DNA of 33,643 bases from positions 1-33,643 of IMG/VR virus record IMGVR_UViG_3300028177_000017; one strand, 5' to 3'. This DNA comes from a virus. The notes beneath the pieces are model-generated. The model did no database searches, was not told where the DNA came from, and saw only the letters and a list, made by a program, of their open reading frames with translations. Positions 17,223 to 33,643 of this stretch are shown here, piece after piece; position 1 is the first letter of the stretch, and every line of letters begins with the position of its first letter. Made by a program: the position numbers and the translations under genes.

Positions 17223-19601
17223 TTAAGAAATAAAACCTTCAATATCTTTTAAAATTAAGTCTGCAACACTCTGCTTGTTTCTTAATGCTTTGATAATAGA
17301 CTCATCTACTGTACCTCGCGCCACTAGGTCTCGGTATACAACATTCTTCTTCTGACCAATACGCATCGCCCTGTCCTCAGACTGTAGTCTGTCCTCAAGT
17401 GAGTACGAATTAGAGTAGTAGATAACACTACTAGCACTCGTAAGTGTCAATCCAGTCGATGCTGTCTTATTAGCGACAAAGTATTTAATCTTAGGGCTTA
17501 GTTGGAAGTCCTGCACGTTCTTAGCACGGTCGTCCGATTCAGTCGCTCCGTAATACGAGACACACTCGTCCCCCAGCAGTGCAGTAACCTGTTGAATCTC
17601 ATGGATAAAACGACACCAGATGATAGTCTTCTCTTGGTTGTCTTCCAGTATGTCCTTAAGGAGCTTTAATTTAGCATCGCCCCCTTTAACACTAATGATA
17701 TCTCCGTCCTCAGTAGTCATATATCCCGAGATTAGCTGAGAGAGTCTGAGTAGTTTAGTGATAGCCAGCTGAGCTGTAACTCTACCTTCTGCCATCTCCA
17801 ACATTACCTCCTCCTTAATCACTTTATATAGACGCTTTTGTTCTGGAGACAGGTCAAAATACACCTTCTCGTAAATCTTGTCTGGCAGGTCAAGGCACTC
17901 CTCTTTAGTTACTCTAAATGAGTGGGGTTTAATCAACCGCTGGAGCTCATCTAGGTTCTGAAATCCAATCACCTGCGTATACTGTCGCTGTTGAGAGTGA
18001 TTAATCTTCTTCTCTAGGATAGCGAAGTGGGCGCGAAACGCGACAAACGACTGGAAGCCTAGTATGTAGGGGTCTAGAAACGCAAACTGACTGTATGCAT
18101 CCAGTGGGGAGTTTGTAATCGGGGTGCCTGTTGAGATTCTCTTGTAGGGCGCCAGCTTGCCTAGCTTTAAAACAGCCTTAGTACGCTTCGCTTGAGGTGT
18201 CTTAAACTTCTGAGACTCGTCCAATATCAACATCGTACGAAACATACGCATATACTTCTCAACGAAGGTAACGCCTTTCTTGGTGATTAGCGCCTCTACG
18301 TTCATACATACGATTCGTAGCCCTAGCTTTAAATCAACCACCGCAGCCAGCGACTCTTTGTCTTCTTTACGCATAGCTGAGTTCCATGCTGACGATGCAT
18401 ACATGTGAGTTGGCAGTGCTAAGTGTGTTGGTATCTCGTTGATAACCCAGTTCTGATGTACGCCACTAGGTGCTAGTACTAATATTGCATCAATCTTCCC
18501 TTGGTTGTATAAGTAACACGCGTTGTCTAACAGCATCTTACTCTTACCAGTATTACCGCTACAGAATATACACCCGTTCCTACGAAACACTAGATAAGTG
18601 GAGGGTACCGTGAAGCAGTACATCTTACCGTCTGGGCTGTCCTCATAAGTCACATTATCTTTACCGCTACCTATATTATAAAAACTACGCTCTGTTGCGT
18701 GAACTACGTAATCAATACCGTCCCTTCTGGTGTATCTGTTTACACTCGCTCTGGTGCCTGTAGATGAAAAACAATACTGTATGAAATCAGCGCTATCCCT
18801 ATCTCTAGTGTAAAAAGCCCTGCCTCCCGCCTTCCTGCTAGACCCGTCCCAGTAGATACACTCGTCTGCAATAGCCTCCCTCTGCTCTAAGGACGCATCC
18901 CAAAAGCCTTTGTATGTCTTGGTTTTAATTGGAGCATTGAAAGAAAATACCCAGAATCCCGTAGCTTCCTCCTGTCTCTCGTAGCATGATTTTTTATCAC
19001 TCCTGTCAAAGCCACACTCGTCTAAGATGCCTCGAAGCCTAGTTACCTTAGCCCCTTTCTTCAGCCTAAGTGTCACCCTGTCTGTAGCGCAGTTTGATGG
19101 GAAATGACCATCTGCCATCACTGCAACCTGTAGCCTTAACTGAGCATCATTTATTCCCATCTCGGTATTACTGTTTAAAGTAAAAGTAGCGGGAAATCTG
19201 GTTTTACCTACAGACCCTCCCCAATACCTGTCAGCGACATCTAGTGCAGGGCTCTCTTGCATCTTGGTGCCATACCCTTTCCACACTACGCGGTGGTCTT
19301 TGGACAATAGCATATCAAGCCCACGAGTGTTTTTAAACCTAATCATGGGGTCTGGGCAGGGCTTGACGTGATACTCAGTAGGCTCCACGAAAACAGCCTC
19401 GTTAGTCTCCATGTCCCACTGAGCAACCTCGCCTCCTGCATACTCGGACATCTTAACCCACCCTGTAGGGGATAGATATTCAGTGTCTTTGTCAACACAG
19501 CCCATGTCGGCAATCAGTGCAAAGGTCTCTCTGTCTTTCATTATGTTAAATGCCTGCTCCTGATGAGCATAAGGCTTAGTTTTAAATTTAAAGTCTGACA
19601 T
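17223..19601 (-). CDS. SNF2-family DNA helicase interrupted by an intein
   Basis: 792-aa precursor; 476 aa after removal of intein residues 35-350. AAGGAG lies eight bases before the ATG. The N-terminal extein ends IADMG and the C-terminal extein begins TGKSKMLLD, so splicing rebuilds the Walker A loop MGTGKS. Other motifs are LAPSGVHQNW (Ia), DESQ at 461-464 (motif II), STGTPI at 490-495 (III), a C-terminal helicase domain with ASTGLTL near 714-720, and QSEDRAMRIGQ at 740-750 (VI). SNF2-type enzymes translocate on duplex DNA with ATP; in marine podoviruses they sit with VRR-NUC nuclease and PolA in the replication module, as here. Confidence 0.9.
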   Translation of the reverse strand: MSDFKFKTKPYAHQEQAFNIMKDRETFALIADMGCVDKDTEYLSPTGWVKMSEYAGGEVAQWDMETNEAVFVEPTEYHVKPCPDPMIRFKNTRGLDMLLSKDHRVVWKGYGTKMQESPALDVADRYWGGSVGKTRFPATFTLNSNTEMGINDAQLRLQVAVMADGHFPSNCATDRVTLRLKKGAKVTRLRGILDECGFDRSDKKSCYERQEEATGFWVFSFNAPIKTKTYKGFWDASLEQREAIADECIYWDGSSRKAGGRAFYTRDRDSADFIQYCFSSTGTRASVNRYTRRDGIDYVVHATERSFYNIGSGKDNVTYEDSPDGKMYCFTVPSTYLVFRRNGCIFCSGNTGKSKMLLDNACYLYNQGKIDAILVLAPSGVHQNWVINEIPTHLALPTHMYASSAWNSAMRKEDKESLAAVVDLKLGLRIVCMNVEALITKKGVTFVEKYMRMFRTMLILDESQKFKTPQAKRTKAVLKLGKLAPYKRISTGTPITNSPLDAYSQFAFLDPYILGFQSFVAFRAHFAILEKKINHSQQRQYTQVIGFQNLDELQRLIKPHSFRVTKEECLDLPDKIYEKVYFDLSPEQKRLYKVIKEEVMLEMAEGRVTAQLAITKLLRLSQLISGYMTTEDGDIISVKGGDAKLKLLKDILEDNQEKTIIWCRFIHEIQQVTALLGDECVSYYGATESDDRAKNVQDFQLSPKIKYFVANKTASTGLTLTSASSVIYYSNSYSLEDRLQSEDRAMRIGQKKNVVYRDLVARGTVDESIIKALRNKQSVADLILKDIEGFIS
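18552..19499 (-). mobile_element. intein with LAGLIDADG-type endonuclease domain
   Basis: 316 in-frame residues starting at Cys35 (CVDKDTEYLSPTGWVKMSEY, block A) and ending FRRNGCIFCSGN before Thr (blocks F/G). Block B is LLSKDHRVV. The middle contains two degenerate LAGLIDADG-like helices (LQVAVMADGHF near 158-167 and AIADECIYWDGSS near 243-255), so it is probably a full-size intein with a homing endonuclease. The terminal Asn is preceded by Gly rather than the usual His, and the +1 residue is Thr; both occur in some functional inteins. Removal restores an intact P-loop. Insertion into the ATP site is a classic intein location. Confidence 0.88.
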
Positions 19602-23091: not shown

Positions 23092-23842
23092 TAATGCGCC
23101 CCTTAGCTATATCAAAATAGTTGCTGTCTAGTTCAATACCAATGAACTTCCTATCTAGGTTCTTACAGGCTACACCTGTAGTTCCACTGCCCATAGTAAA
23201 GTCTAAGACTATTTCATTTTCGTTGGTGTGACTCTTAATTAAGTATTCAAGTAATTCAATAGGCTTCTGTGTTGGGTGACTACCTCTAGCACCTTTCGCC
23301 CTGTTATTAAACTCTTGAATATTCTCTGGATTTTTCATGTTTGGGTTATACTCTATCTCTGTATTATTTCTCTGTATACCACCTATAACATCTGCCTTTC
23401 CTTCTGAATTATATTTGAAACCTGCATTTATTCTACTTTTGCCACTTTCCGCTCTTGGTTGCATTATTGGATAATAGTTCGCCTTCTTACCTGTTTTCGT
23501 AAACACACAAACATCTTCAATATGCTTCATTGGTTGATATTTAGCACTTGCAAAATTACTAGCAATTCGTTTTTTATAATACCACTGCCATTTGAAGTTC
23601 TGAATGTTTGAGCCAATTAACTCTGTTGTAAATGGCTGTTGTCCAAATAAAACAATAGGGGTATTTTCATCTTTTGCTAACCCTCGTAATCTTTCCCACA
23701 TATCATATAAATTTATAACACTATCCCACTTACAAGCAGTAGTTCCATAAGGCGGGTCAGTTATAATAGCATCAACCTTAACACCATCATCAATCAATCT
23801 GTCCATCACCTCTAAACAATCACCTTTATGTAAGTTAATCAT
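23084..23842 (-). CDS. beta-class DNA methyltransferase, DPPY type
   Basis: 252 aa. DPPY at 29-32 indicates an N6-adenine (less often N4-cytosine) methyltransferase. DFTMGSGTTG starts near residue 214. The segment LFGQQPFTTELIGSNIQNFK followed by KWQWYYKK is typical of a phage/prophage adenine methyltransferase family with a GSHPTQKPIELL motif (here SHPTQKPIELLEYLI). It overlaps the downstream methyltransferase by 8 nt and the upstream one by 4 nt, so the three are co-translated. The N-terminal 27 residues and C-terminal 25 residues closely resemble those of the 250-aa neighbour, pointing to duplication or exchange of ends. Confidence 0.87.
   Translation of the reverse strand: MINLHKGDCLEVMDRLIDDGVKVDAIITDPPYGTTACKWDSVINLYDMWERLRGLAKDENTPIVLFGQQPFTTELIGSNIQNFKWQWYYKKRIASNFASAKYQPMKHIEDVCVFTKTGKKANYYPIMQPRAESGKSRINAGFKYNSEGKADVIGGIQRNNTEIEYNPNMKNPENIQEFNNRAKGARGSHPTQKPIELLEYLIKSHTNENEIVLDFTMGSGTTGVACKNLDRKFIGIELDSNYFDIAKGRIND
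23108..23146. repeat. 39-bp exact direct repeat, copy 2 (pairs with 22369-22407)
   Basis: Second copy, in the 3' end of the 252-aa methyltransferase gene and in the same orientation 739 bases away. Homologous recombination between the copies would delete most of the 250-aa gene and leave a hybrid. Confidence 0.85.
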
Positions 23843-25350
23843 TCAAACCAAGTGTTTATTGATGGTTGGTTTTCTTTTATAATCACCTTATCATCATCAT
23901 CTAAAACCATATCGTCAGAAGCATTGATTCTTGCTTCTGCAATTTTGAAATAATCTTTATCCATTTCAATACCAATGAAATTAAATCCAGCGATATTTGC
24001 TGACATCCCCGATGTTCCACTTCCCATGAACGGGTCTAGTGTGGTTCCACCTTTTGGTGTTACTAACGTTTGTAGGTACAATATTAATTTAATTGGTTTC
24101 ACGGTTGGGTGATTGTTCTTTGTTGTTTTTATAGTTAGATTGTTATCGAATTTAAAACCACACCCACACCCATAAGTAGATTTTCCTAATGGAATAGATA
24201 CATCATGAGTTGGACATTTCCTAATAACATTGGACAAACCTTTGTCATGTGTGTTTCTTCCATCTTTGGTCGGAAAGTCGTCCAATCCTAAATTACGTTC
24301 ATTCTTTGATGTTTTAGCGCAGTAGAAGAATCTTGATGCTCCGCCATTAATCGATGACGCACCACTCTGTTCATCCATAATCTTGATTGGGCAATCTTCG
24401 TGACAAATGTAATCATCTACTGTTTCATTTCCATCTTCATCGCCATGCCCAACCATTTCACCTTTTCGGAAAGTTATATTCCCCCATCCTTCGTATTGTT
24501 CTGTATTGGAATTTAACTCATGTGGTTTGCTATTACCTTTTACCGTTTTAACGCCAATACATTGGCACTCAGGGTGATGTGACATAATTATGTTAGATGG
24601 GAATCTGCCTGATGTTTTTTCTGCGTTTATAGCACATTCCTCTCCTGTGGAATTCATCCTCCACCCATCATGTGAGTGCTTAGATGGGTTAAATCGTGTT
24701 GGTTCTGGTGTACCTGCAACTCGACTATCATCGATGTTGATTCCACCTGTGCCATGTTTTAGAACATTGGCAGCAACGGTTTTTTCTGAAATTGGTTTAC
24801 GTGCCATGACGATTGGTTCATGTGCTGGTTTTAAAGCAGTACCCCAACCTTCCCACTTCCCACCATTCTCGGTTAGTTCAGTTTCGATAGGAGTGTTATC
24901 TGACCCTTGTGCTTTCTTATCAAAGAACCCTTTCTGCCAATCTTCTTGTCCGGTTGGTTCATATTCGTCTCCTAGTCTTGCCTTACGAATTGATTTCCTG
25001 CCGCTACCACCATAAATTTCTGTTGCTGTTATTGCTTTACCAACGTTTAAACTTTTCGGGAATCCACTTCCAAAATTCCAAGAAATCATATCTCTTATCT
25101 CGAATCCAGCATCTTCAACACGTACTGCCATCCTATGATATGTTCTACTTCCACTGAATGACAATAAGTGACCACCTGGTTTTAATACACGTAAACATTC
25201 TTCGAATATTTCTTGACTTGGAACGTCATAGTCCCATTTCTTCCCCATGAAACTAAGTCCATACGGTGGGTCAGTCACAATTGAATCGATGCTGTCGTCA
25301 TCTAATGTTTTTAATACAACTAAACAGTCGTCATTATATAAATCTATCAT
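23839..25350 (-). CDS. large DNA methyltransferase with inserted Cys/His-rich region, DPPY type
   Basis: 503 aa. DPPY at 27-30, a GLSFMGKKWDYDVPSQEIFE element and GGHLLSFSGSRTYHRMAVRV are typical of phage adenine-type methyltransferases; DPFMGSGTSG is near residue 439. A roughly 270-residue insert separates the halves of the catalytic fold. The insert has Cys/His clusters (SHHPECQCIG, YICHEDCPIKIMDEQSG, CPTHDV...YGCGCGF) that could form zinc ribbons or a target-recognition domain. The tail beyond motif I is acidic (DDMVLDDDDK). Its start shares ATGA with the upstream membrane-protein gene. Specificity cannot be read from sequence. Confidence 0.85.
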   Translation of the reverse strand: MIDLYNDDCLVVLKTLDDDSIDSIVTDPPYGLSFMGKKWDYDVPSQEIFEECLRVLKPGGHLLSFSGSRTYHRMAVRVEDAGFEIRDMISWNFGSGFPKSLNVGKAITATEIYGGSGRKSIRKARLGDEYEPTGQEDWQKGFFDKKAQGSDNTPIETELTENGGKWEGWGTALKPAHEPIVMARKPISEKTVAANVLKHGTGGINIDDSRVAGTPEPTRFNPSKHSHDGWRMNSTGEECAINAEKTSGRFPSNIIMSHHPECQCIGVKTVKGNSKPHELNSNTEQYEGWGNITFRKGEMVGHGDEDGNETVDDYICHEDCPIKIMDEQSGASSINGGASRFFYCAKTSKNERNLGLDDFPTKDGRNTHDKGLSNVIRKCPTHDVSIPLGKSTYGCGCGFKFDNNLTIKTTKNNHPTVKPIKLILYLQTLVTPKGGTTLDPFMGSGTSGMSANIAGFNFIGIEMDKDYFKIAEARINASDDMVLDDDDKVIIKENQPSINTWFE

Positions 25351-25577
25351 TTATTTTCCGTTTTACAAAGGTGATGGTTAAAGATTCTTCTCCACACGTA
25401 AGAACGTATTACAGCACTTACCGTGAATATTCCCGTAATACCAAGATTATCAAGCATGGTCATTTCAATGTTCCATAATGGAGCAACGATGTAAATCCAT
25501 ATTATTAGAGATACGAAAAATCCGCTTGTGATATTTAGCAATGATTCAGTGAGTGAACCTAATTTTGATTGTTGCAT
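25347..25577 (-). CDS. small membrane protein, DUF7220-like
   Basis: 76 aa with two hydrophobic segments, residues about 18-35 (SGFFVSLIIWIYIVAPLW) and 43-58 (NLGITGIFTVSAVIRSYV), followed by a basic end (WRRIFNHHLCKTENK). The layout SxxES...N...GFxxSL...NLGITxIFTVxSxxRSYxxRRxF matches a small phage membrane protein family I recall as DUF7220; the number is from memory. No Shine-Dalgarno is obvious before its ATG. It shares ATGA with the 503-aa methyltransferase, so it is the first gene of that minus-strand block. Function unknown. Confidence 0.65.
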   Translation of the reverse strand: MQQSKLGSLTESLLNITSGFFVSLIIWIYIVAPLWNIEMTMLDNLGITGIFTVSAVIRSYVWRRIFNHHLCKTENK

Positions 25578-25638
25578 TATATAAAATATGCTAAAAACAT
25601 ATAATTATATACAATGTGATTTTTATTTTATGATGGGG

Positions 25639-25668
25639 TTGACCTAAATACCCATTTAGGTTTAAAAT
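25639..25668 (+). promoter_or_regulatory. sigma70-like promoter with palindromic operator in the spacer
   Basis: TTGACC at 25639-25644 and TAAAAT at 25663-25668 are separated by 18 bases. The spacer is almost filled by the perfect inverted repeat ACCTAAATACCCATTTAGGT (25642-25661), 8-bp arms around ACCC, overlapping the -35 box. A protein bound there would block RNA polymerase. Transcription would begin about 10-15 bases before the Shine-Dalgarno of the 47-aa gene (GGAG at 25682). It looks like a host-polymerase promoter under repressor control. Confidence 0.55.
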
Positions 25669-25691
25669 AATTTATATGAACGGAGAATAAA

Positions 25692-25835
25692 ATGAAACAT
25701 GAAATTAAAAATAAAATACTCCACTCTGTTAGAACACCATTGTTCAAGAGCAAGGTATTTAAAGATAAGAAAAAGGAATCTAAAAAGAATGGAAATGATA
25801 AGGATAAGGGCTATGATTATAACCCACACCCTTAA
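25692..25835 (+). CDS. small basic protein, possible ArfA-like ribosome rescue factor
   Basis: 47 aa, with GGAG six bases before the ATG and its own promoter. The sequence has HSVRTPLFKSKVFKDKKKES, close in pattern to the core of bacterial ArfA (DPLFRQRVEKNKKGKGSY), in which the Lys-rich part enters the empty mRNA channel of a stalled ribosome while RF2 is recruited. The tail (KNGNDKDKGYDYNPHP) is unlike ArfA. ArfA genes usually carry an internal hairpin that truncates their mRNA; I see none here. Alternative: a generic small basic phage protein. The match is by eye only. Confidence 0.45.
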   Translation: MKHEIKNKILHSVRTPLFKSKVFKDKKKESKKNGNDKDKGYDYNPHP

Positions 25836-25976
25836 TATGTTTAATGCCCATATTTATCATAAAATGAATTAATTCCCATCAACTAAATAATATCACTCGT
25901 AAGAGTTTTTTAAATAACACAGGAGGTACTGATATAATTATTATGAAATTTGTTTAATAGCCAATAAGGAGGTACT
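25836..25976 (+). promoter_or_regulatory. intergenic stretch with weak hairpin and duplicated Shine-Dalgarno
   Basis: ACTC-GTAA-GAGT followed by six T (25895-25911) is a weak terminator-like hairpin. AGGAGGTACT occurs twice, at 25921-25930 and 25967-25976. The second copy serves the 36-aa gene. The first is followed by a start that gives only a four-codon peptide (M-K-F-V-stop at 25953-25967), so it may be a leader peptide or a remnant of duplication. Confidence 0.4.
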
Positions 25977-26087
25977 ATGAAAAAGTATGATTGGTCAAAA
26001 GAAATTAACGGCAATGGTGAAGATATCGTAACGATGTGCTTTATGTGCTTTATTATAATAATGGGTATAGTATCAATGATTAACTAG
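25977..26087 (+). CDS. tiny membrane peptide with CxxC-type motif (36 aa)
   Basis: Preceded by an almost perfect AAGGAGGT four bases before the ATG, the strongest ribosome binding site in this half. The N-terminal half is hydrophilic (KKYDWSKEINGNGEDIV) and the second half is a single membrane helix (TMCFMCFIIIMGIVSMI) containing C-F-M-C. It is followed 34 bases later by a strong terminator. Single-helix phage peptides of this size may be lysis regulators or host-membrane modulators; no specific function can be given. Confidence 0.5.
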   Translation: MKKYDWSKEINGNGEDIVTMCFMCFIIIMGIVSMIN

Positions 26088-26114
26088 ACATAGGAAATAA
26101 TATGTTTTACTCAT

Positions 26115-26147
26115 AAAAAAAGGCAACCTTTAACAGTTGCCTTTTTT
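26115..26147. terminator. bidirectional rho-independent terminator
   Basis: GGCAAC (26122-26127) and GTTGCC (26136-26141) form a 6-bp stem with loop CTTTAACA. Seven A precede and six T follow it, so the A and T tracts extend the stem and provide a U-run for both strands. It lies between the plus-strand 36-aa gene and the minus-strand 72-aa gene, ending both transcripts. Confidence 0.9.
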
Positions 26148-26163
26148 ATTGGTTGATTATATA

Positions 26164-26382
26164 TTACTTATTAAAGATTTTATATAAAACAGCAGCGGCT
26201 ACTAGTCCAACAAGACCTTGAGCACCAAGTTGTGCAACAATACCAGTGATGGTGCCGATAATGTCACCACCAATGAATGGCACTGTGCCACCGAAAATAA
26301 CCTGTAATACGATTGCGAACGCAATCAATGCTACACCTGCTTCTGTGCCAGATTTAATCCAGCCTACGATATCTTTTAACAT
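26164..26382 (-). CDS. small Gly-rich membrane protein, holin-sized
   Basis: 72 aa, AGGAG seven bases before the ATG. Two hydrophobic segments, about residues 14-32 (EAGVALIAFAIVLQVIFGG) and 38-68 (GGDIIGTITGIVAQLGAQGL, VGLVAAAVLYKIF), are separated by a short Pro/Gly turn (TVPF). Both ends carry Lys (MLKDIVGWIK, YKIFNK). This architecture suits a class II holin or another small inner-membrane protein. It is a single-gene minus-strand unit between a terminator and the divergent T4-like operon. No lysin gene is near, so holin is only one option. Confidence 0.6.
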   Translation of the reverse strand: MLKDIVGWIKSGTEAGVALIAFAIVLQVIFGGTVPFIGGDIIGTITGIVAQLGAQGLVGLVAAAVLYKIFNK

Positions 26383-26562
26383 ATAATTTCTCCTATGTAG
26401 TTAAAATATAGTTTAAAGTCATTCCAGACTTGTAGAAAATGGCAACATTGCCAAATTCATCGGTTTATTTAGTTTTTTATTAATAAACTCATTTTTTATA
26501 TTGGTCGTTTTTATGCTTGTTGAATAGGATAAATAAGATTAAGTATAATTAAGGAGTAAAAT
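26383..26562. promoter_or_regulatory. divergent intergenic region upstream of the tail tube gene
   Basis: It contains a perfect palindrome TGGCAACATTGCCA (26440-26453), an AT-only hairpin (GTTTATT 26463-26469 with AATAAAC 26482-26488, followed by TCATTTTTT) that could be a weak terminator, GATAAATA at 26528-26535 (one mismatch from the T4 late promoter box TATAAATA) and the Shine-Dalgarno AAGGAG at 26551-26556. The late-type box is correctly placed about 28 bases before the tail tube ATG. Confidence 0.45.
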
Positions 26563-27177
26563 ATGTCAGTATCATCATTGACTAGAATGACAACACCATT
26601 AGCAACAGACCAATCAGGCTCAAGCCAAGGTTTGTTAATGCCAAAGTTAAAGTATAGATTCCGTGTAGTTTTTGAAAACTTCGGCGTATCTACACCAAGA
26701 ACTGAACTAACAAAACAAGTAATTGACTTTACTAGACCATCAGTAAGTTTTGACCCAATCGACATTGAGATTTATAACTCACGTGTACGTTTGGCAGGTA
26801 AGCATACTTGGGACGATATTAATGTTAATCTACGAGATGATGCTAGTGGCATGGTTTCTAAGTTAGCAGGTGAGCAATTACAGAAGCAATTAGATTTCAT
26901 GGAACAAGCAAGTGCCGCTTCGGGTGCTGATTACAAATTTACTACACGTGTGGAGATTTTAGACGGTGGTAATGGTGCACACGAGCCAAATGTATTAGAG
27001 ACTTGGGAAGTATATGGTTGTTACCTTGCTAACGTAAACTACGGAGATTTGAACTACGGTAGTTCAGAGCCAGTTACAGTTGCAATGACATTACGTTTCG
27101 ATAACGCAGTGCAAACTCCAATCGGTAGTGGCATTGGCGCAGATGTTGGTAGAAGCATTGGCGACAGCGTTTCGTAA
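26563..27177 (+). CDS. T4-like tail tube protein gp19
   Basis: 204 aa with AAGGAG six bases upstream. The pattern matches the T4 gp19 tail tube family: LKYRFRVVFENFGVSTPRTE, then VIDFTRPSVSFDPIDIEIYN, AGKHTWDDINVNLRDDASG (compare T4 VAGDRTFDDWTVTVMND), ETWEVYGCYLANVNYGDLNY and VTVAMTLRFDNA. Hexamers of this protein stack to form the inner tube of a contractile tail. Its presence implies a myovirus, which conflicts with the podovirus-type genes at 1-22 kb. The sheath gene (gp18) is not in the window. Confidence 0.82.
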   Translation: MSVSSLTRMTTPLATDQSGSSQGLLMPKLKYRFRVVFENFGVSTPRTELTKQVIDFTRPSVSFDPIDIEIYNSRVRLAGKHTWDDINVNLRDDASGMVSKLAGEQLQKQLDFMEQASAASGADYKFTTRVEILDGGNGAHEPNVLETWEVYGCYLANVNYGDLNYGSSEPVTVAMTLRFDNAVQTPIGSGIGADVGRSIGDSVS

Positions 27178-27187
27178 CTAATCCATT

Positions 27188-28801
27188 ATGGGATTTGGTA
27201 GTTTTCTAAAATCTTCACTAAAGGAACAACTAGGTAGTTGGGATGATTTTAGTGGTGGATTTAAAGAAGGGTTCTTCGGGAATGATTATTTCCGTGACTA
27301 TAAGCACGGAAGTAAGATATTCGTTGCCGATGGGCATGCCCTCGCCCCCACTAATAAATTCCTATTCCATGTTTACTTCACGTTAAACACTGCGGAAATA
27401 CCACAATTAAAAAAATCACTTGGTCCCGATGGGTCTAATCGTATAGGTATGCTTGTTAAAACTGTAAAACTCCCTACATTCAATTTTGAAGTAGAGGAAA
27501 TGAATCAGTACAATCGCAAGCGATATATTCAGAAGAAGATTAATTACAGACCATTGAATATCACCTTCCATGATGATGGAAGTGATACTGTTAGGTCTAT
27601 GTGGTACAATTATTATAATTATTATTATAGTGACCCTAGTCATGGATATGATGGGAAAGGTTCAAATAACCCAAGTTATAATGCACGTGATATATACGAT
27701 AACGGTCGTGTAATTAACGATTGGGGTTTCAATGGTTCAGGACCAAACGGATATGAAAAACCAGCATTCTTTACTGATATAAAGGTATATGGCATGAACC
27801 GAGGAAACTTTACCTCGTACACATTGATTAATCCAATTATTACTGATTGGGACCACGATACGTTCGATTACAGTGCTGGTAGCGAGGTGATGCAACATAC
27901 CATGACTATCAATTGCGAAACTGTTAAATACGGTCGTGGTAAGGTCGGAGAAGAGGTTAAAGGATTTGGTGAATCATCAATGTATGATACTAGTCCTAGC
28001 CCACTGCGACCAGGTACGACTGCTAGTTTATTTGGTCGTGGGGGGATGATAGAATCGGGAAGTAGCATCATTGATGATTTGGCATCAGGTAATATATTGG
28101 GTGCCATTAGAACTGGTGGTTCTTTGCGGAATACACTTAAAGGAGCAAATGTGGGGTCACTTGTTGCATCGGAATTAGTATCAGGTGCAATATCAATGGG
28201 TACCAATTATATTTCAAATAATGGAAGTAGTCTTAGTAGTACATTTTCAATTCCATCGATTGGAACAGGAATAAGCGCAATAACTAGTGGGATTGGAGGT
28301 GCAGTGTCTGGATTATTTTCAGGAAGTAACTTTGGTTCAGTAACCGATAGTATTAGTAGTGCGTTACCTAACATGGGAGGAATAACGAATATGTTCGGCG
28401 GAGTATCTCCAAGTGCAAATCAGTTAGCAGCAAAGTTAGCGCCAGGTGTATCATTAAACACTAGTGATTTTGAACATATGTTTGCTACTATGCAATCATC
28501 AATGCCACAGGGCATGGCAGTATTAGAAGGTAGTACAGGTAGTATTTCCAATGCACTATCTGGAGTAACATTACCGAGCGTAGCAAATCTACAAGATGGG
28601 ATTCCGAGCATGGATAGTTTGAAAAATATGGCAAACGATTTAACCCCTTCATTGAACAGTGTTGCTAAATCGTTTGCTCCTGTATCGCAGAGTATATCAC
28701 AGCAAATGAATACGTTGGTTAAGTCAGGTGAGGTAAAAAAACTTACCAACAGTATGCAATCGGCGGGTGATGTATTTAGTAATGGGATTAAAATAGGTTA
28801 G
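27188..28801 (+). CDS. tail-tube-like protein with long C-terminal extension
   Basis: 537 aa. Residues about 50-250 have gp19-type features: TNKFLFHVYFTLNTAEIPQL, LVKTVKLPTFNFEVEEMNQY, YIQKKINYRPLNITFHDDGS and a Tyr-rich WYNYYNYYYSDPSHGYDG. These are followed by YTLINPIITDWDHDTFDYSA. From about residue 280 the chain becomes Gly/Ser/Met-rich, with hydrophobic stretches (LVASELVSGAISMGTNYISN, ISAITSGIGGAVSGLFSGSN). A baseplate tube initiator (T4 gp48/gp54 role) or tail-tip tube protein is likely, since contractile tails use gp19-fold paralogues there. It follows gp19 after 10 bases. Confidence 0.65.
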   Translation: MGFGSFLKSSLKEQLGSWDDFSGGFKEGFFGNDYFRDYKHGSKIFVADGHALAPTNKFLFHVYFTLNTAEIPQLKKSLGPDGSNRIGMLVKTVKLPTFNFEVEEMNQYNRKRYIQKKINYRPLNITFHDDGSDTVRSMWYNYYNYYYSDPSHGYDGKGSNNPSYNARDIYDNGRVINDWGFNGSGPNGYEKPAFFTDIKVYGMNRGNFTSYTLINPIITDWDHDTFDYSAGSEVMQHTMTINCETVKYGRGKVGEEVKGFGESSMYDTSPSPLRPGTTASLFGRGGMIESGSSIIDDLASGNILGAIRTGGSLRNTLKGANVGSLVASELVSGAISMGTNYISNNGSSLSSTFSIPSIGTGISAITSGIGGAVSGLFSGSNFGSVTDSISSALPNMGGITNMFGGVSPSANQLAAKLAPGVSLNTSDFEHMFATMQSSMPQGMAVLEGSTGSISNALSGVTLPSVANLQDGIPSMDSLKNMANDLTPSLNSVAKSFAPVSQSISQQMNTLVKSGEVKKLTNSMQSAGDVFSNGIKIG

Positions 28802-28803
28802 TA

Positions 28804-29133
28804 ATGACAAGAAAGTTAAATGTAGATACGTTTTATTCGGATAGGGATATTGGAATAAGTTCCGAACACTATAGTATTGTATTTGGCTTTTTTAAGAAAG
28901 TATTCGATACACCAAACACAGCAGATGCCTTCTCTGTTGATTTATTCAGGGTGTCTAAAGCAATTGATGTATCTGTATTAACCCTCTTGGATTCAATGAA
29001 AGACAAAGATAAAATCGGAATATCTGAAATAATGGCATATTATCTTAATCAAATACGCTCACAAAGCGCACTGCTTGGGGTTAGTAATGTCATCACCCCG
29101 AATCAACAGGTTGCTAGAAATATATTGGATTAA
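28804..29133 (+). CDS. conserved T4-like virion-associated protein (109 aa)
   Basis: Starts two bases after the previous stop. FFKKVFDTPNTADAFSVDLF, then VSVLTLLDSMKD and ISEIMAYYLNQIRSQSALLG followed by ITPNQQVARNILD, is a pattern I recall from small proteins beside tail/neck genes of T4-like cyanophages and pelagiphages, labelled hypothetical or structural. Mostly helical with no enzymatic motif. The context between the tube and head-completion genes supports a virion assembly role. Confidence 0.6.
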   Translation: MTRKLNVDTFYSDRDIGISSEHYSIVFGFFKKVFDTPNTADAFSVDLFRVSKAIDVSVLTLLDSMKDKDKIGISEIMAYYLNQIRSQSALLGVSNVITPNQQVARNILD

Positions 29134-29136
29134 TAT

Positions 29137-29559
29137 ATGCCTCGATATTCACAAGGTCATTATAAACCTCGTAATCCAAACAAGTACGTAGGGAAAGGTT
29201 CCATTATATATAGAAGTTCATGGGAGTTAGCGTTTATGAATTTCTGTGATAATAACGAACATGTTATGGAATGGGCAAGTGAATCTATACGTATCCCGTA
29301 TCGTAACCCCTTGACGGGAAAGCACTCCACCTACGTTCCTGACTTTTTGGTTGTATACCAAAACAAACATGGCAAACGTGTTGCTGAATTAATTGAAATT
29401 AAACCAAAAAAGCAGAGCATGCTTACGGAGAAGTTAAATAGCAAGGAACGTGCTACGGTTGCTATTAATTACGCTAAATGGGAAGCGGCAATTGCTTGGG
29501 CAAAACGTAATCACATTGTTTTTAGAGTAATAACGGAAGACCAAATCTTTCGAAAATAA
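29137..29559 (+). CDS. T4-like head completion nuclease gp4
   Basis: 140 aa. YRSSWELAFMNFCDNN (Glu30), IPYRNPLTGKHSTYVPDF (Asp69) and LIEIKPKK (Glu87-x-Lys89) reproduce the PD-(D/E)XK core of the T4 gp4/gp50/gp65 head completion family, a TnsA-like nuclease fold. The end EAAIAWAKRNHIVFRVITED is also typical. In T4 it acts on filled heads before tail joining, probably processing DNA ends at the neck. It has no Shine-Dalgarno and begins three bases after the upstream stop, suggesting coupled translation. Confidence 0.85.
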   Translation: MPRYSQGHYKPRNPNKYVGKGSIIYRSSWELAFMNFCDNNEHVMEWASESIRIPYRNPLTGKHSTYVPDFLVVYQNKHGKRVAELIEIKPKKQSMLTEKLNSKERATVAINYAKWEAAIAWAKRNHIVFRVITEDQIFRK

Positions 29560-29560
29560 T

Positions 29561-30061
29561 ATGACAAAAAAATTAGAAAGTTTGTTTGAGTTACCCGAAT
29601 CATCGAGTAGACCAAATGAAGAAGATATTAATACGACACCAGAAGAAATAACAGCAATAGTTGAAATGAGCAATCTTGAGAAGATTGAGAATGCATTAAC
29701 TGCGGTTCGTGGATTAGAAGCAAGTGATGAAGAAATGGATACACTTGCTAGACAAGCAGTTGAAAGTTATAAAGACTTGATGGACTTAGGAATGAATGTT
29801 GAACCACGCCATGCTAGTGAGATATTTGGTGTTGCTGAGCGTATGCTTAACAGTGCAATCACAGCAAAGAACGCTAAGGTTAATAAGAAACTCAAAATGA
29901 TTGATTTACAACTCAAGAAAGCAAAGTTGGATTTGGATAATCCAGAAGGCGGACTAAGTACGTTATCCAACGGTTCATTATTGGACAGAAACGAATTATT
30001 GGACAGACTTATTAAAGGCACAGACGAATCCATCATTGATGTAGAAGAAACTGACAAATAG
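29561..30061 (+). CDS. T4-like small terminase subunit gp16
   Basis: 166 aa, starting one base after the gp4-like gene. An acidic N-terminus is followed by helices around NVEPRHASEIFGVAERMLNS (residues 79-98, compare T4 ADSPRHMEVFATLMGQM) and a basic coiled coil (AKVNKKLKMIDLQLKKAKLD). The C-terminal GSLLDRNELLDRL (138-150) compares with T4 GSPTELMDEI. gp16 forms rings that regulate the large terminase gp17, which should lie elsewhere in the genome. The assignment rests on this three-part pattern. Confidence 0.72.
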   Translation: MTKKLESLFELPESSSRPNEEDINTTPEEITAIVEMSNLEKIENALTAVRGLEASDEEMDTLARQAVESYKDLMDLGMNVEPRHASEIFGVAERMLNSAITAKNAKVNKKLKMIDLQLKKAKLDLDNPEGGLSTLSNGSLLDRNELLDRLIKGTDESIIDVEETDK

Positions 30062-30069
30062 TATAAATA
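30062..30069 (+). promoter_or_regulatory. T4-type late promoter box TATAAATA
   Basis: A perfect match to the T4 late -10 element, placed right after the gp16-like stop and 36 bases before the next ATG (30106). The AGGA of TAGGAAATTAGT serves that gene. T4 late promoters need only this box plus gp55 sigma and the sliding clamp. The downstream genes encode proteins with prohead-type leaders, which fits late expression. Confidence 0.6.
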
Positions 30070-30105
30070 CAGATAACATTTAATTACATACGGTAGGAAA
30101 TTAGT

Positions 30106-30708
30106 ATGAGAACATTACGAGATTATTTAATAGAGTCATCAAGACAATACGAATACCGTATTAAGATTGCTGGTGAATTATCACAAGAACAAATTGAAAA
30201 GATGGAGCAAGGATTTGCGGCATTCGATATGGTTAGTTTATCTGAACCAAAAAGAACACCAATTGAACAGAATCCATTGGGATTTGAAGGTATTAAGAAC
30301 AAAGAAGTTAACATTTTAGATGCTAAATTCAATTACCCTGCAAGTACAGAGCAATTTGTGCAAATTTGCAAAGATGCAGGTATTGCAGGCAATAGTATTA
30401 TTGTTGTTAATAAAGCATTTGACGATAGCATGGCAGACGAAGAAGCAAATAAAGACAGAACACCAGAAGATGGGTCTTTGTTGGATAGTGACTTACCTGC
30501 TGATATACAAGCACAAGTAGATGCTAATAAAGACTACACTACACCGGGTAGCGAAAAGGATGTTATTAAGAACAGAGCAAAGACAGAATTTGAAGTGGCG
30601 GGTGGAAAAACTGCAAAAGCAGTAACGACTAATGATTTGCCACAGAATAACACAAGTCCGTTTAGTGGTGTTAAATTACCTGAGCGTCCTGAGACAGGAG
30701 CAAAGTAA
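30106..30708 (+). CDS. virion/prohead protein with cleavable leader (200 aa)
   Basis: Begins MRTLRDYLIESSRQYEYRIK. LIE|S at residues 8-11 fits the (L/I)-x-E|(A/G/S) site used by T4-type prohead proteases. The body starts EYRIKIAGELSQEQIEKMEQ and includes LSEPKRTPIEQNPLGFEGIK and DAKFNYPASTEQFVQICKDA, a pattern I recall from uncharacterised structural proteins of large T4-like phages. The C-terminal third is disordered and acidic to basic (ADIQAQVDANKDY, VKLPERPETGAK). First gene after the late promoter. Probably packaged in the head; function unknown. Confidence 0.6.
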   Translation: MRTLRDYLIESSRQYEYRIKIAGELSQEQIEKMEQGFAAFDMVSLSEPKRTPIEQNPLGFEGIKNKEVNILDAKFNYPASTEQFVQICKDAGIAGNSIIVVNKAFDDSMADEEANKDRTPEDGSLLDSDLPADIQAQVDANKDYTTPGSEKDVIKNRAKTEFEVAGGKTAKAVTTNDLPQNNTSPFSGVKLPERPETGAK

Positions 30709-30755
30709 TGAACCTGCAGGAAAGTATTAGAAATGACTTAAAATTATTCGAAGAG
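30708..30755 (+). repeat. leader-coding repeat, copy 1 of 4
   Basis: 48-nt segment coding MNLQESIRNDLKLFEE. Related copies start at 31162, 31514 and 31813. Similarity stops sharply at the predicted cleavage site, so selection or copying acts on the leader alone. Confidence 0.8.
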
Positions 30756-31157
30756 CAAGTATTTGCTGGTTATATAGCAATGTACAATGGGCAGAAACTT
30801 GAAATTGACAAAGAAGATGCGGATGGAATATATGACGCAAAGCAATTAGCAATTGCGCATTTTAAAATACCTAAGTCAAAGCAAGGGTTACTAGCGATTG
30901 AACCTGCGTACAACGAGGAAGTCAACGAAGATGAAAATCAAGACTATAAAGTATTAGAAACACTTGCTACTTTTAGAGACCTGTATCAACAAATTAAAGT
31001 GGTAGATACGTCCGGATATGTACTTGACCAATATAAAGAATCACAGTTGCGTAACATTTATCATGCAATTATTGAGAATTCGTTTACTATTAGAAGTGGA
31101 AAACGACAAGACATTCCTGATTTAGACGGTAGCTATTACAACCACCCAATTGATTAA
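30708..31157 (+). CDS. capsid-targeted candidate, leader copy 1 (149 aa)
   Basis: The ATG overlaps the previous stop (TAATG) and AGGAG lies upstream. Leader MNLQESIRNDLKLFEE ends in an L-F-E site. The mature part includes YIAMYNGQKLEIDKEDADGI and AKQLAIAHFKIPKSKQGLLA, resembling a small beta/alpha domain common in marine phage virion proteins, then a helical C-terminus (TLATFRDLYQQIKVVDTSGY). The shared leader with three following genes, and not the bodies, is the strongest clue: delivery into the prohead before protease cleavage. Confidence 0.6.
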   Translation: MNLQESIRNDLKLFEEQVFAGYIAMYNGQKLEIDKEDADGIYDAKQLAIAHFKIPKSKQGLLAIEPAYNEEVNEDENQDYKVLETLATFRDLYQQIKVVDTSGYVLDQYKESQLRNIYHAIIENSFTIRSGKRQDIPDLDGSYYNHPID

Positions 31158-31161
31158 TATT

Positions 31162-31209
31162 ATGAACTTACAAGAAAGCATTAGAAGCGATTTAAACAAA
31201 TTAGACGAA
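31162..31209 (+). repeat. leader-coding repeat, copy 2 of 4
   Basis: Codes MNLQESIRSDLNKLDE. It differs from copy 4 at only two bases (AGC versus AAT at codon 9) over the leader, a sign of recent duplication or conversion. Confidence 0.8.
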
Positions 31210-31509
31210 GGTCAACAATCAACAGTAGACTCAGTAATGATTAAAAAACTAAACCAAAAATTTCCATGTTGCAATGCAGTTTCTACATCAGAGTGGGACG
31301 GTAAAGCGGGTGGTATTTGGTTCAGAGGCTCAGGTGATTGTGAAATAGAGGTTGAGTACGATGGAGAAAAATATAGCATGCCTTTATATGAACCAGAAGT
31401 TTTTACTGACACATTTGGAACTAATCCAGAACTAGCAGAGTTCTTAGAATTAAATGGTTGGTTCACTGAACCATATGATAGTGGTACATTAATGGCATAT
31501 CCGGATTAA
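31162..31509 (+). CDS. capsid-targeted candidate, leader copy 2 (115 aa)
   Basis: The start at 31162 is chosen because it begins the conserved leader MNLQESIRSDLNKLDE|G; an ATG four codons earlier adds only MINI. No Shine-Dalgarno; four bases separate the upstream stop from this ATG. The body has Cys pairs (KFPCCNAVSTSEWDGKAGGI, GSGDCEIEVEYDGEKYSMPL) and aromatic strands, ending FTEPYDSGTLMAYPD. The fold looks alpha+beta and is unrelated to its neighbours. Function unknown. Confidence 0.6.
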   Translation: MNLQESIRSDLNKLDEGQQSTVDSVMIKKLNQKFPCCNAVSTSEWDGKAGGIWFRGSGDCEIEVEYDGEKYSMPLYEPEVFTDTFGTNPELAEFLELNGWFTEPYDSGTLMAYPD

Positions 31510-31513
31510 TATC

Positions 31514-31561
31514 ATGAACCTACAAGAAAGCATTAGAGGCGATTTAAAACTGTTTGAGACA
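31514..31561 (+). repeat. leader-coding repeat, copy 3 of 4
   Basis: Codes MNLQESIRGDLKLFET. It shares the first ten codons with the others and the KLFE ending with copy 1. Confidence 0.8.
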
Positions 31562-31813
31562 GAAGACAGAGCAGGAATGGTTATCAACTACGATGACCCA
31601 AGTAATCCCGAAGTACGTGTTAGTGGCTTTGGTGATATGTTATTGCATCAACTTGAAGCATCTATTCAGGACAAATTAGTGAACCTTGTAGAGCGTGGCA
31701 ACGAAGGCAATTATGAAACAATTAATTGGGCAATTTATGAGCAAGGAACTTTAAAACATTTCCTCAAAGCACTTCTTGAAATTAACGACGAAATGATATT
31801 GGACAAAGAGTAA
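31514..31813 (+). CDS. capsid-targeted candidate, leader copy 3 (99 aa)
   Basis: Leader MNLQESIRGDLKLFE|T. The body is short and acidic: MVINYDDPSNPEVRVSGFGD, then helices MLLHQLEASIQDKLVNLVER and QGTLKHFLKALLEINDEMIL. It starts four bases after the previous stop without a Shine-Dalgarno, and its own stop overlaps the next ATG. No family recognised. An acidic helical internal protein might balance charge or bind a host target after injection; both are speculation. Confidence 0.58.
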   Translation: MNLQESIRGDLKLFETEDRAGMVINYDDPSNPEVRVSGFGDMLLHQLEASIQDKLVNLVERGNEGNYETINWAIYEQGTLKHFLKALLEINDEMILDKE

Positions 31814-31860
31814 TGAACTTACAAGAAAGCATTAGAAATGATTTAAACAAATTAGACGAA
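31813..31860 (+). repeat. leader-coding repeat, copy 4 of 4
   Basis: Codes MNLQESIRNDLNKLDE, nearly identical at the DNA level to copy 2. Confidence 0.8.
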
Positions 31861-32286
31861 GGGATAAACGTTGACCGTTTTATGGGCAAATACCAGTTAA
31901 GAACTCTTGACGATGTCGAAGAATATGTACGTTCATTAGTTGGGGTTGACCAAAACCACGGTAAAACCGAACTGTTAGCAATTGAAATGGGGTTCAATCC
32001 ACCACACTCAGGAAACTATGTATATTTTAAACAAAAGCGCGAAGGTGATAAAATTATAGTATTTAATACAATAGGTCCAGGATTTTATATTGGTGAGTAT
32101 GAGAGTGAATTAGACATATCTGAATTTACAATTCATCTTGACGCACCAACAACTAAAGACGAAGTTGACGAAAGATTACGCGAATACCTCGGTTATCTAA
32201 CTGATGTAAAACAAGTTGCAAAAAAACTTCATAGTGATTACACTGACTTCGAAAGCAAACGCCATTTGCCTCAGGGTTTGTATTAG
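31813..32286 (+). CDS. capsid-targeted candidate, leader copy 4 (157 aa)
   Basis: Leader MNLQESIRNDLNKLDE|G is 48 of 50 nt identical to copy 2 although the bodies differ completely. The body includes MGKYQLRTLDDVEEYVRSLV, then ETGFNPPHSGNYVYFK-like strands (actual start IEMGFNPPHSGNYVYFKQKR), DISEFTIHLDAPTTKDEVDE and a helical, basic end (VAKKLHSDYTDFESKRHLPQ). The ATG overlaps the upstream stop (TAATG). No enzymatic motif recognised. Confidence 0.58.
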   Translation: MNLQESIRNDLNKLDEGINVDRFMGKYQLRTLDDVEEYVRSLVGVDQNHGKTELLAIEMGFNPPHSGNYVYFKQKREGDKIIVFNTIGPGFYIGEYESELDISEFTIHLDAPTTKDEVDERLREYLGYLTDVKQVAKKLHSDYTDFESKRHLPQGLY

Positions 32287-32295
32287 GATAATAAA

Positions 32296-33643
32296 ATGAA
32301 AAAACTAAACGAAGGACCAACAATCAAAACAGACCACAAAGGCAGTCATTTAACGAATGCCGATGGAGAAGTTGTACAGTCTTTTGCAAAAGATAGAGCA
32401 GGATTAAAAGCCGCCAGACAATCTATGTACAAGAATTACAAAGGTCTTAATATGAAAAAACCTGAACCACAAGAGCCAGTTGAAGAAGATTCAGCAGTAG
32501 ACCCACGCATTAATATACACCGTGGTGAACAAGTAATGAAGAACAATTACCGTAAAAATGCAGGTGTTGATATGCCTGCTGATAAGGTTGCTAAGATGCA
32601 ATCAACACGTGCTGATTGGGACGCAGATAACGAGGCTAAGTTTGGTAAATTTGATTGGAATAAAACCCCTGAATTCGAAAAACCTAATGCAAGAGCATCG
32701 GAGTTGAATAAACAAGCAAAAGCGGCTAGGGCGAATTTTAAATCACCTACATTAACACCACAAGAACGTGAAACTTATAAACAATCGCGCAATGCTCAAA
32801 CTGCACAAGCAAATAAACAACGAGTTGCAAATGGACAAACACCATTTGCAATGGAAGATACAATTACAGAAAATACGGGTGGGTTTGAAGTACGTTTAGA
32901 CAATGGTGGTAGAGTTCCTATAGGAAAACATACATTTACATACCACGTCAATGACGCAAGTGAAGCAAATGCAGTAGCACGTTCTGCAGAAAAAAGTGGA
33001 ATGACAGTTCTTGACATCGATAGCGAAGAAATCCGCATTGATGCACAAGCACACAAACATAGTAGTTTGGTAAATTCACTACAAGACTTAGAAATTAACG
33101 GATACATAACAGAAGGAGTTACAGTTCATCCAAGTATGGTGTCGCAAAAAGGTCGCTACAAGGTTTTTTACAGTATACAGGATTCACTTAAAGTTGCACA
33201 AATAACACGATGGGCAGTAAAGAACAATATAACAGTACGGAAATATGACACGGACAAATTTATTATTCGTGGTAACGCATCAGACCACAGAAGTATGGTA
33301 AGTTATTTGCGCAATAAAGGAATTAGTGCTGATGCAACAGTTATGAATCCTTTAATTACTAAAGACACCGATATATACTCCGATGACGATATCAATGCTG
33401 ATATTAAACAAACCTACAACGTTGACGACGAAGGACACTTAGTAACTGGTGACGGTGACGAAGTTACAGGGCCTGGAATTTCTACAAGAATACAACAAAA
33501 AATACAACAAGATAGATTAATGCACAACGAGGATAACACAATGTCTAATTTAGATAAAAAATTAAAAAAACAACTAGAGGAAGGCATTACAGTTAATACT
33601 ACCTCCACAAACGACGATAACGTTGAAAATAATGTAAATGTTA
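32296..33643 (+). CDS. multi-site prohead substrate or polyprotein, 3' end outside window
   Basis: 449 complete codons with no stop; the gene continues past the edge. AGGA at 32285-32288 lies seven bases before the ATG. MKKLNE|GPTIK gives a short leader with an L-x-E|G site at residue 6. Further (L/I)-x-E sites follow at 190-192 (ITE|N), 271-273 (ITE|G) and 427-429 (LEE|G). Residues 7-190 are polar, Lys/Asn/Ala-rich and probably disordered. Residues about 194-255 and 274-352 look folded (FEVRLDNGGRVPIGKHTFTY; GRYKVFYSIQDSLKVAQITR). Residue 416 starts MSNLDKKLKKQLEEG, leader-like, with its own GAGGA. It may be a processed internal or core protein. Confidence 0.6.
   Translation, partial: MKKLNEGPTIKTDHKGSHLTNADGEVVQSFAKDRAGLKAARQSMYKNYKGLNMKKPEPQEPVEEDSAVDPRINIHRGEQVMKNNYRKNAGVDMPADKVAKMQSTRADWDADNEAKFGKFDWNKTPEFEKPNARASELNKQAKAARANFKSPTLTPQERETYKQSRNAQTAQANKQRVANGQTPFAMEDTITENTGGFEVRLDNGGRVPIGKHTFTYHVNDASEANAVARSAEKSGMTVLDIDSEEIRIDAQAHKHSSLVNSLQDLEINGYITEGVTVHPSMVSQKGRYKVFYSIQDSLKVAQITRWAVKNNITVRKYDTDKFIIRGNASDHRSMVSYLRNKGISADATVMNPLITKDTDIYSDDDINADIKQTYNVDDEGHLVTGDGDEVTGPGISTRIQQKIQQDRLMHNEDNTMSNLDKKLKKQLEEGITVNTTSTNDDNVENNVNV
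33529..33541 (+). promoter_or_regulatory. internal ribosome binding site inside the last gene
   Basis: GAGGA at 33529-33533 lies seven bases before an in-frame ATG at 33541 that starts MSNLDKKLKKQLEEG, a sequence resembling the capsid-targeting leaders. Many upstream genes in this operon lack any Shine-Dalgarno, so this one inside a gene stands out. Confidence 0.4.

Follow-up and report, generated by a model that had tools for sequence, protein, structure and literature searches.

Gene content of the window and layout of its last reading frame

The stretch of DNA analysed here (the window) is a linear virus contig of 33,643 nucleotides that is T4-like from ~23.7 kb onwards. From that point its genes encode, in order, two tail tube proteins, gp4 for head closure (match to phrog_218 at E 3e-43), proteins of 166 aa and 200 aa, the second of which is a head protein (phrog_14802), four small proteins and the product of a last ORF. 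In L007, L092 and L151 the terminase large subunit lies within one or two genes downstream, and the cultured phages PA5oct and Phosso have the same gene order. L002 (4052-5206) and L007 (3913-5073) have a ~385-aa gene between gp4 and the 166-aa gene that is absent from the window.

The window itself looks chimeric (1 to ~22300 versus 23687-33643). To the left lies the genome of a small phage, with PolA, a helicase, other structural proteins and a GC content of 0.41-0.52; the right part is T4-like with a GC content of ~0.37, and the two are joined within a tandem array of methyltransferase genes (phrog_67) at 22.3-25.3 kb. In close relatives of the right part, what lies upstream of the methyltransferases is instead a protein of 1125-1128 aa that by eye is similar to a T4-type tail sheath. 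The helicase ORF (17226-19601, minus strand) has an apparent intein in its Walker A region (CVDKDTEYLSPTGW...SGNTGKS).

The four consecutive small genes (30708-32286) share the leader MNLQESIRxDL..(L/F)(D/F)E in front of unrelated bodies. Behind the first of these leaders L002 has a different body, and L007 and L129 carry a different gene set; the region resembles the internal-protein genes of T4 as an exchange hot spot. The last ORF and the features discussed below are as follows, with an arrow marking each predicted cut.

31162-31509, plus strand: stand-alone leader gene (MNLQESIRSDLNKLDE↓G); in L007 and L092 its cargo domain recurs after other (L/I/V)xE sites
32296-33643, plus strand: whole precursor ORF, 449 codons, open at its 3' end (contig end)
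32296-32313, plus strand: N-terminal leader MKKLNE↓ with (L/I)xE site 6, kept in L002, L007, L027/L028 and L129/L130
32314-32490, plus strand: conserved GxHLxNADGExVQSF domain, residues 7-65 (from alignment), modelled as beta-beta-alpha
32491-32871, plus strand: insert part 1 (residues 66-192), a charged, helical stretch with site 192 (ITE↓N) at its end
32872-33114, plus strand: cargo domain copy 1, residues 193-273, ferredoxin-like, between ITE↓N and ITE↓G
33115-33390, plus strand: linker and cargo domain copy 2, residues 274-365, same fold as copy 1 (from HMM and model)
33391-33528, plus strand: end of the insert on its C-terminal side (GISTRIQQKIQQDRLMHN), the final part of which recurs in the independent contig L101
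33529-33533, plus strand: internal Shine-Dalgarno (SD) element GAGGA, 7 nt before the ATG; AGGA or AGGG kept at the same spacing
33541-33582, plus strand: internal ATG and nested leader MSNLDKKLKKQLEE↓ with site 429, the site being kept in 33 of 34 members
33583-33643, plus strand: start of the conserved C-terminal domain (GITVNTT...), which the contig end cuts

By analogy with L007 and L101, in which 369 and 352 aa follow from the internal Met, the complete precursor would be ~770-780 aa long. Searches of viral contigs with the head proteins, the ORF and pieces of the ORF gave 34 distinct members around the C-terminal domain, and all family members seen come from environmental contigs of T4-like phages, where the gene precedes that for the terminase large subunit. 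Besides the window, the near clade comprises L007, L029-31, L033-36, L092, L101, L105/106, L108, L113, L115, L118, L129/130, L137 and L140. The window protein matched no PHROG profile and Pfam only below threshold, with the same lack of match for its near-clade homologues; it had no significant match in 50,697 phage records, and protein searches of cultured phages with it and its relatives found no homologue. A 404-aa protein encoded before the terminase in Sinorhizobium phage Phosso is plausible by eye as a stand-alone C-terminal domain, but its HMM E-value was 0.18 and we do not claim it.

Candidate cleavage sites and exchangeable modules

The original prediction described the last ORF as a multi-site protease substrate with (L/I)xE sites at residues 6, 192, 273 and 429, three of them followed by Gly. 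This matches the sequence exactly, the only [LI]xE triplets being LNE↓G (6), ITE↓N (192), ITE↓G (273) and LEE↓G (429). Four triplets are at chance level (2.7 expected by shuffling, P 0.29), and we therefore dropped their number as evidence for a protease substrate. [LI]xEG is in excess (3 versus 0.14 expected by shuffling, P 0.0004). Since the triplet count equals the expectation from composition, everything beyond the LxEG excess rests on the relatives.

The sites had also been said to separate disordered from folded segments. In an AlphaFold2 model of the window protein (mean pLDDT 58), sites 6, 192 and 273 do fall in stretches with pLDDT <50 (residues 1-12, 188-210 and 268-291), whereas site 429 is the end of a helix (395-428). 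Because about one third of all residues score below 50, this match is weak on its own.

Among the relatives the four sites differ in conservation and are not equivalent, as the original prediction had treated them. Site 429 aligns as [LIV]xE in 33 of the 34 distinct members and as [LI]xE in 32, is mostly followed by Ser or Gly, and in the members that keep it always precedes the same C-terminal domain. L002, L007, L027/028 and L129/130 have site 6 as well; it is mostly present but internal in L033-type relatives (IHE↓G, ITE↓G, INE↓G; L034 and L140 are without L/I) and is lost in L029-31 and L105/106. Homologues without sites 192 and 273 do exist, the observation that was to count against the prediction, but in these the whole insert is absent or replaced. 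From the alignments, then, site 429 appears ancient and near-universal, site 6 a feature of most near relatives, and sites 192 and 273 parts of an insert that other relatives lack. Another cleavage site could be VEE↓G(L/I)(R/K), a further motif conserved close to the C-terminal end of the family protein in L007 and L031.

The insert that holds sites 192 and 273 is 345 residues long in the window protein. There is none in L007 and L105, and it measures ~50 aa in L092, ~100 aa in L029 and ~600 aa in L129. Insert part 1 (residues 66-192) has partial counterparts in L002 and L129/130, in which the cargo diverges from roughly here on, and residues 193-400 were seen, within this gene, in the window only. 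The insert holds a ferredoxin-like domain twice, copy 1 lying exactly between sites 192 and 273 and copy 2 being found at E 6e-8 by an HMM of copy 1 and its relatives from which copy 2 had been left out. A model built of the two copies shows two beta-alpha-beta-beta-alpha-beta folds in which the site ends the last strand and a low-confidence linker follows. The same domain also stands behind LAE↓A or INE↓A in another head-type protein of L036, L119, L120 and L122, which in L036 matches phrog_13484. A search by fold for a cargo function returned only generic ferredoxin/ACT-like matches (TM ~0.3 for the whole model) and uninformative viral ones. Likewise, in the small gene at 31162-31509 of the window the cargo domain starts right at LDE↓G, and where the same domain occurs in L007 and L092 it starts at INE↓A and VTE↓A, respectively.

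Across the family, homologous blocks start at [LI]xE with twice the expected frequency. Among 31 representatives, 48 of 214 block starts lay within 4 residues of an [LI]xE triplet against 23.5 (sd 4.1) in the null, and 84 of 214 within 4 residues of [LIV]xE against 40.0 (sd 5.6), the p-value being indicative because the HSPs are not independent. The control motifs [LIV]xxE, [LIV]xK and [ASG]xE gave no excess, and [LIV]E, which shares residues with the site, gave a slight one (31 versus 23.3). Together with the conservation of the sites, their placement bears out the prediction of a multi-site protease substrate. It is very improbable that the gene encodes an ordinary uncut virion protein carrying (L/I)xE triplets by chance: the number of sites agrees with that explanation, but the near-universality of site 429, the enrichment at block starts, the LxEG excess and the leaders of neighbouring genes, which end in the same site, all argue against it.

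An assembly artefact joining two genes at the contig end is scarcely credible. The window is probably chimeric elsewhere, near 22.3-23.7 kb, but L002 confirms the N-terminal part of the ORF, L101 confirms the end of the insert and the nested leader, and the fused layout recurs in more than a dozen independent contigs.

A conserved start codon inside the reading frame

The GAGGA element predicted seven bases before the ATG at 33541 is present at 33529-33533. Both this ATG (MSNLDKKLKKQLEE↓G) and the ORF start (MKKLNE↓G) open leaders that end in (L/I)xE and fall within the ~6-16 residues looked for in a T4-type internal head protein with a capsid targeting sequence. The nested leader had been likened to the stand-alone leaders of the window (MNLQESIRxDLxxLDEG); MSNLDKKLKKQLEEG agrees with these in length, in hydrophobic spacing and in its LxE↓G end, but not in sequence identity.

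The internal ATG and an SD before it are kept in each of the distinct near-clade sequences examined. The SD reads AGGA in 17 near-clade sequences and AGGG in L129/130, and the spacing to the ATG is exactly 7 nt throughout. At the SD one group encodes Glu and another Lys, both invariably by the rarer codon that ends in G, and in the codon alignment the SD column reads GAG or AAG in 13 of 13 sequences and is the sole Glu/Lys column that is fully G-ending. When all 212 internal Met codons of 14 near-clade ORFs were compared, the nested-start Met had an SD in every ORF (14/14), as against any SD-like element at 10 of the 198 others. In L129 the leader has been replaced by MKINE↓G with the ATG and SD still kept. 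The adjacent 200-aa head gene has AGGA or AGGAG at 6-9 nt in 13 of 14 loci, which indicates that SD starts are in use here. The SD and start codon are kept beyond coding need, as looked for in an in-frame nested gene. Kinship weakens the SD counts, as shared descent explains part of the AGGA conservation and perhaps about four lineages are independent; across these four (window/L007, L029/L105, L033 and L129 types) the SD pattern is still unlikely to have arisen by chance. In the cargo part of the L129 ORF (5001-7568), at residue 216, a second internal ATG follows an AGGA at a distance of 6 nt (MKNIESRTPVEE↓N) and possibly opens another nested leader.

An alternative is that the protein is a fused multi-site precursor and nothing else, the internal Met and AGGA being coding sequence and the C-terminal piece coming solely from a cut at 429. 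Distant relatives (L039, L055, L082 and others) keep site 429 and, before it, 14 residues with the same spacing (YESLDRQLKQQLNE versus MSNLDKKLKKQLEE) without Met or SD, so the nested start is not essential family-wide, and both products, once cut after 429, would yield an identical mature C-terminal fragment. On the other hand, the AGG spacing is kept while Glu changes to Lys, the codon choice goes against usage, and L129 retains ATG and SD despite its replaced leader. We regard the precursor-only explanation as unlikely, if worth keeping in mind.

The original prediction had offered fused leader genes or internal initiation as a choice. Each is probable, but they are not alternatives, since all 34 distinct members are fused in frame and the near clade keeps the internal start. 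The gene probably encodes a precursor that was fused long ago and, in addition, has an internal start that works.

A proposed precursor of head-interior proteins

Judging from the sites and the conserved start, we consider it reasonably probable that the gene encodes a multi-site substrate of a gp21-type protease with a conserved nested start, and that its product is a precursor of packaged or core head-interior proteins of a T4-like phage. The precursor would be a substrate of a gp21-type (S77) prohead protease, whose cuts after (L/I)xE, at the junctions between domains, would take off the leader MKKLNE and free the cargo domain or domains and the conserved C-terminal domain. From the SD and ATG at 33541, in the same frame, a protein of ~350 aa would also be made, consisting of a 14-residue leader resembling a capsid-targeting sequence and the C-terminal domain. 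The slot between the first conserved domain and the internal SD could then receive phage-specific cargo with the nested gene left undisturbed.

Distant relatives encode a gp21-type S77 protease (PF03420) in four large contigs, G007, G009, G010 and G011, in which the family is also present. Our search of the near-clade contigs, which are all fragments (the 213-kb contig of L137 begins at gp23), found none. In G011 and G009 gp21 adjoins gp23 and a separate gp22-like scaffold full of (L/I)xE, and the first 40 residues of gp23 include LLE, LLE, ILE and either LNE↓N or LKE↓N. These sites fit a protease that cuts at (L/I)xE, the specificity established for T4 gp21 (PMC9026906). With a separate scaffold-like gene between gp21 and gp23 and the present gene upstream of the terminase, we rejected its identification as the gp22 scaffold.

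We also weighed whether the protein might be shredded and expelled from the head as are T4 gp22, gp67 and gp68, instead of carrying packaged cargo. The T4 core proteins are cut by gp21 at several sites per protein into several fragments, most of which leave the head (PMC9026906), and the family proteins are likewise acidic and partly disordered. Here, by contrast, the sites edge exchangeable folded domains, which pass between phages and between leader genes, and relatives with the family have their separate gp22-like scaffold. The PA5oct protein gp281 (YP_010678933.1), encoded in the same place before the terminase large subunit and rich in [LIV]xE triplets, stays in the virion according to its annotation, which calls it a virion protein on the basis of ESI-MS/MS; we rejected it as a homologue, as its similarity to either conserved domain is not significant. 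A shredded core protein thus seems improbable to us, and we retain the precursor of head-interior proteins.

T4 packs small proteins into its head behind removable leaders. Its internal proteins IPI-IPIII have a short N-terminal leader, the capsid targeting sequence, that ends in (L/I)xE for gp21 and is kept before variable mature parts, and the set of genes varies by phage (PMC9026906, PMC3012670). These are single small genes with one N-terminal site, whereas the present gene combines several sites, several domains and a second start in a single frame. A shorter product from an internal in-frame start is also known in a head-assembly gene of T4, gp21 itself, whose second start at Met45 gives gp21s (PMC9026906); that gene encodes the protease, whereas here it is the substrate that is nested, and the short form starts with its own leader. 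SPN3US and phiKZ have long head propeptides cut at several sites by a gp21 relative, but the specificity in SPN3US is AxE, the pieces removed are propeptides, and the part of that account available to us reports no nested start (PMC10052503). Phage polyvalent proteins similarly combine several domains in one packaged polypeptide, but carry recognisable effector or peptidase domains (PMC5512222), none of which was found in the window protein.

More tentatively, and with some doubt, we suggest a two-start head gene with a built-in cargo slot, in which protease-releasable domains are swapped between the upstream leader domain and the internal start, so that new cargo would be targeted to and released in the head while the C-terminal protein is still made at its own level. 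The proposed reading names concrete candidate sites and would aid the annotation of a family that matches no PHROG or Pfam family. If it is true, uncultured relatives of T4 turned leader packaging into a polyprotein in which the cargo region can be exchanged and a second gene is nested, which would be a compact route to evolve proteins delivered with the DNA.
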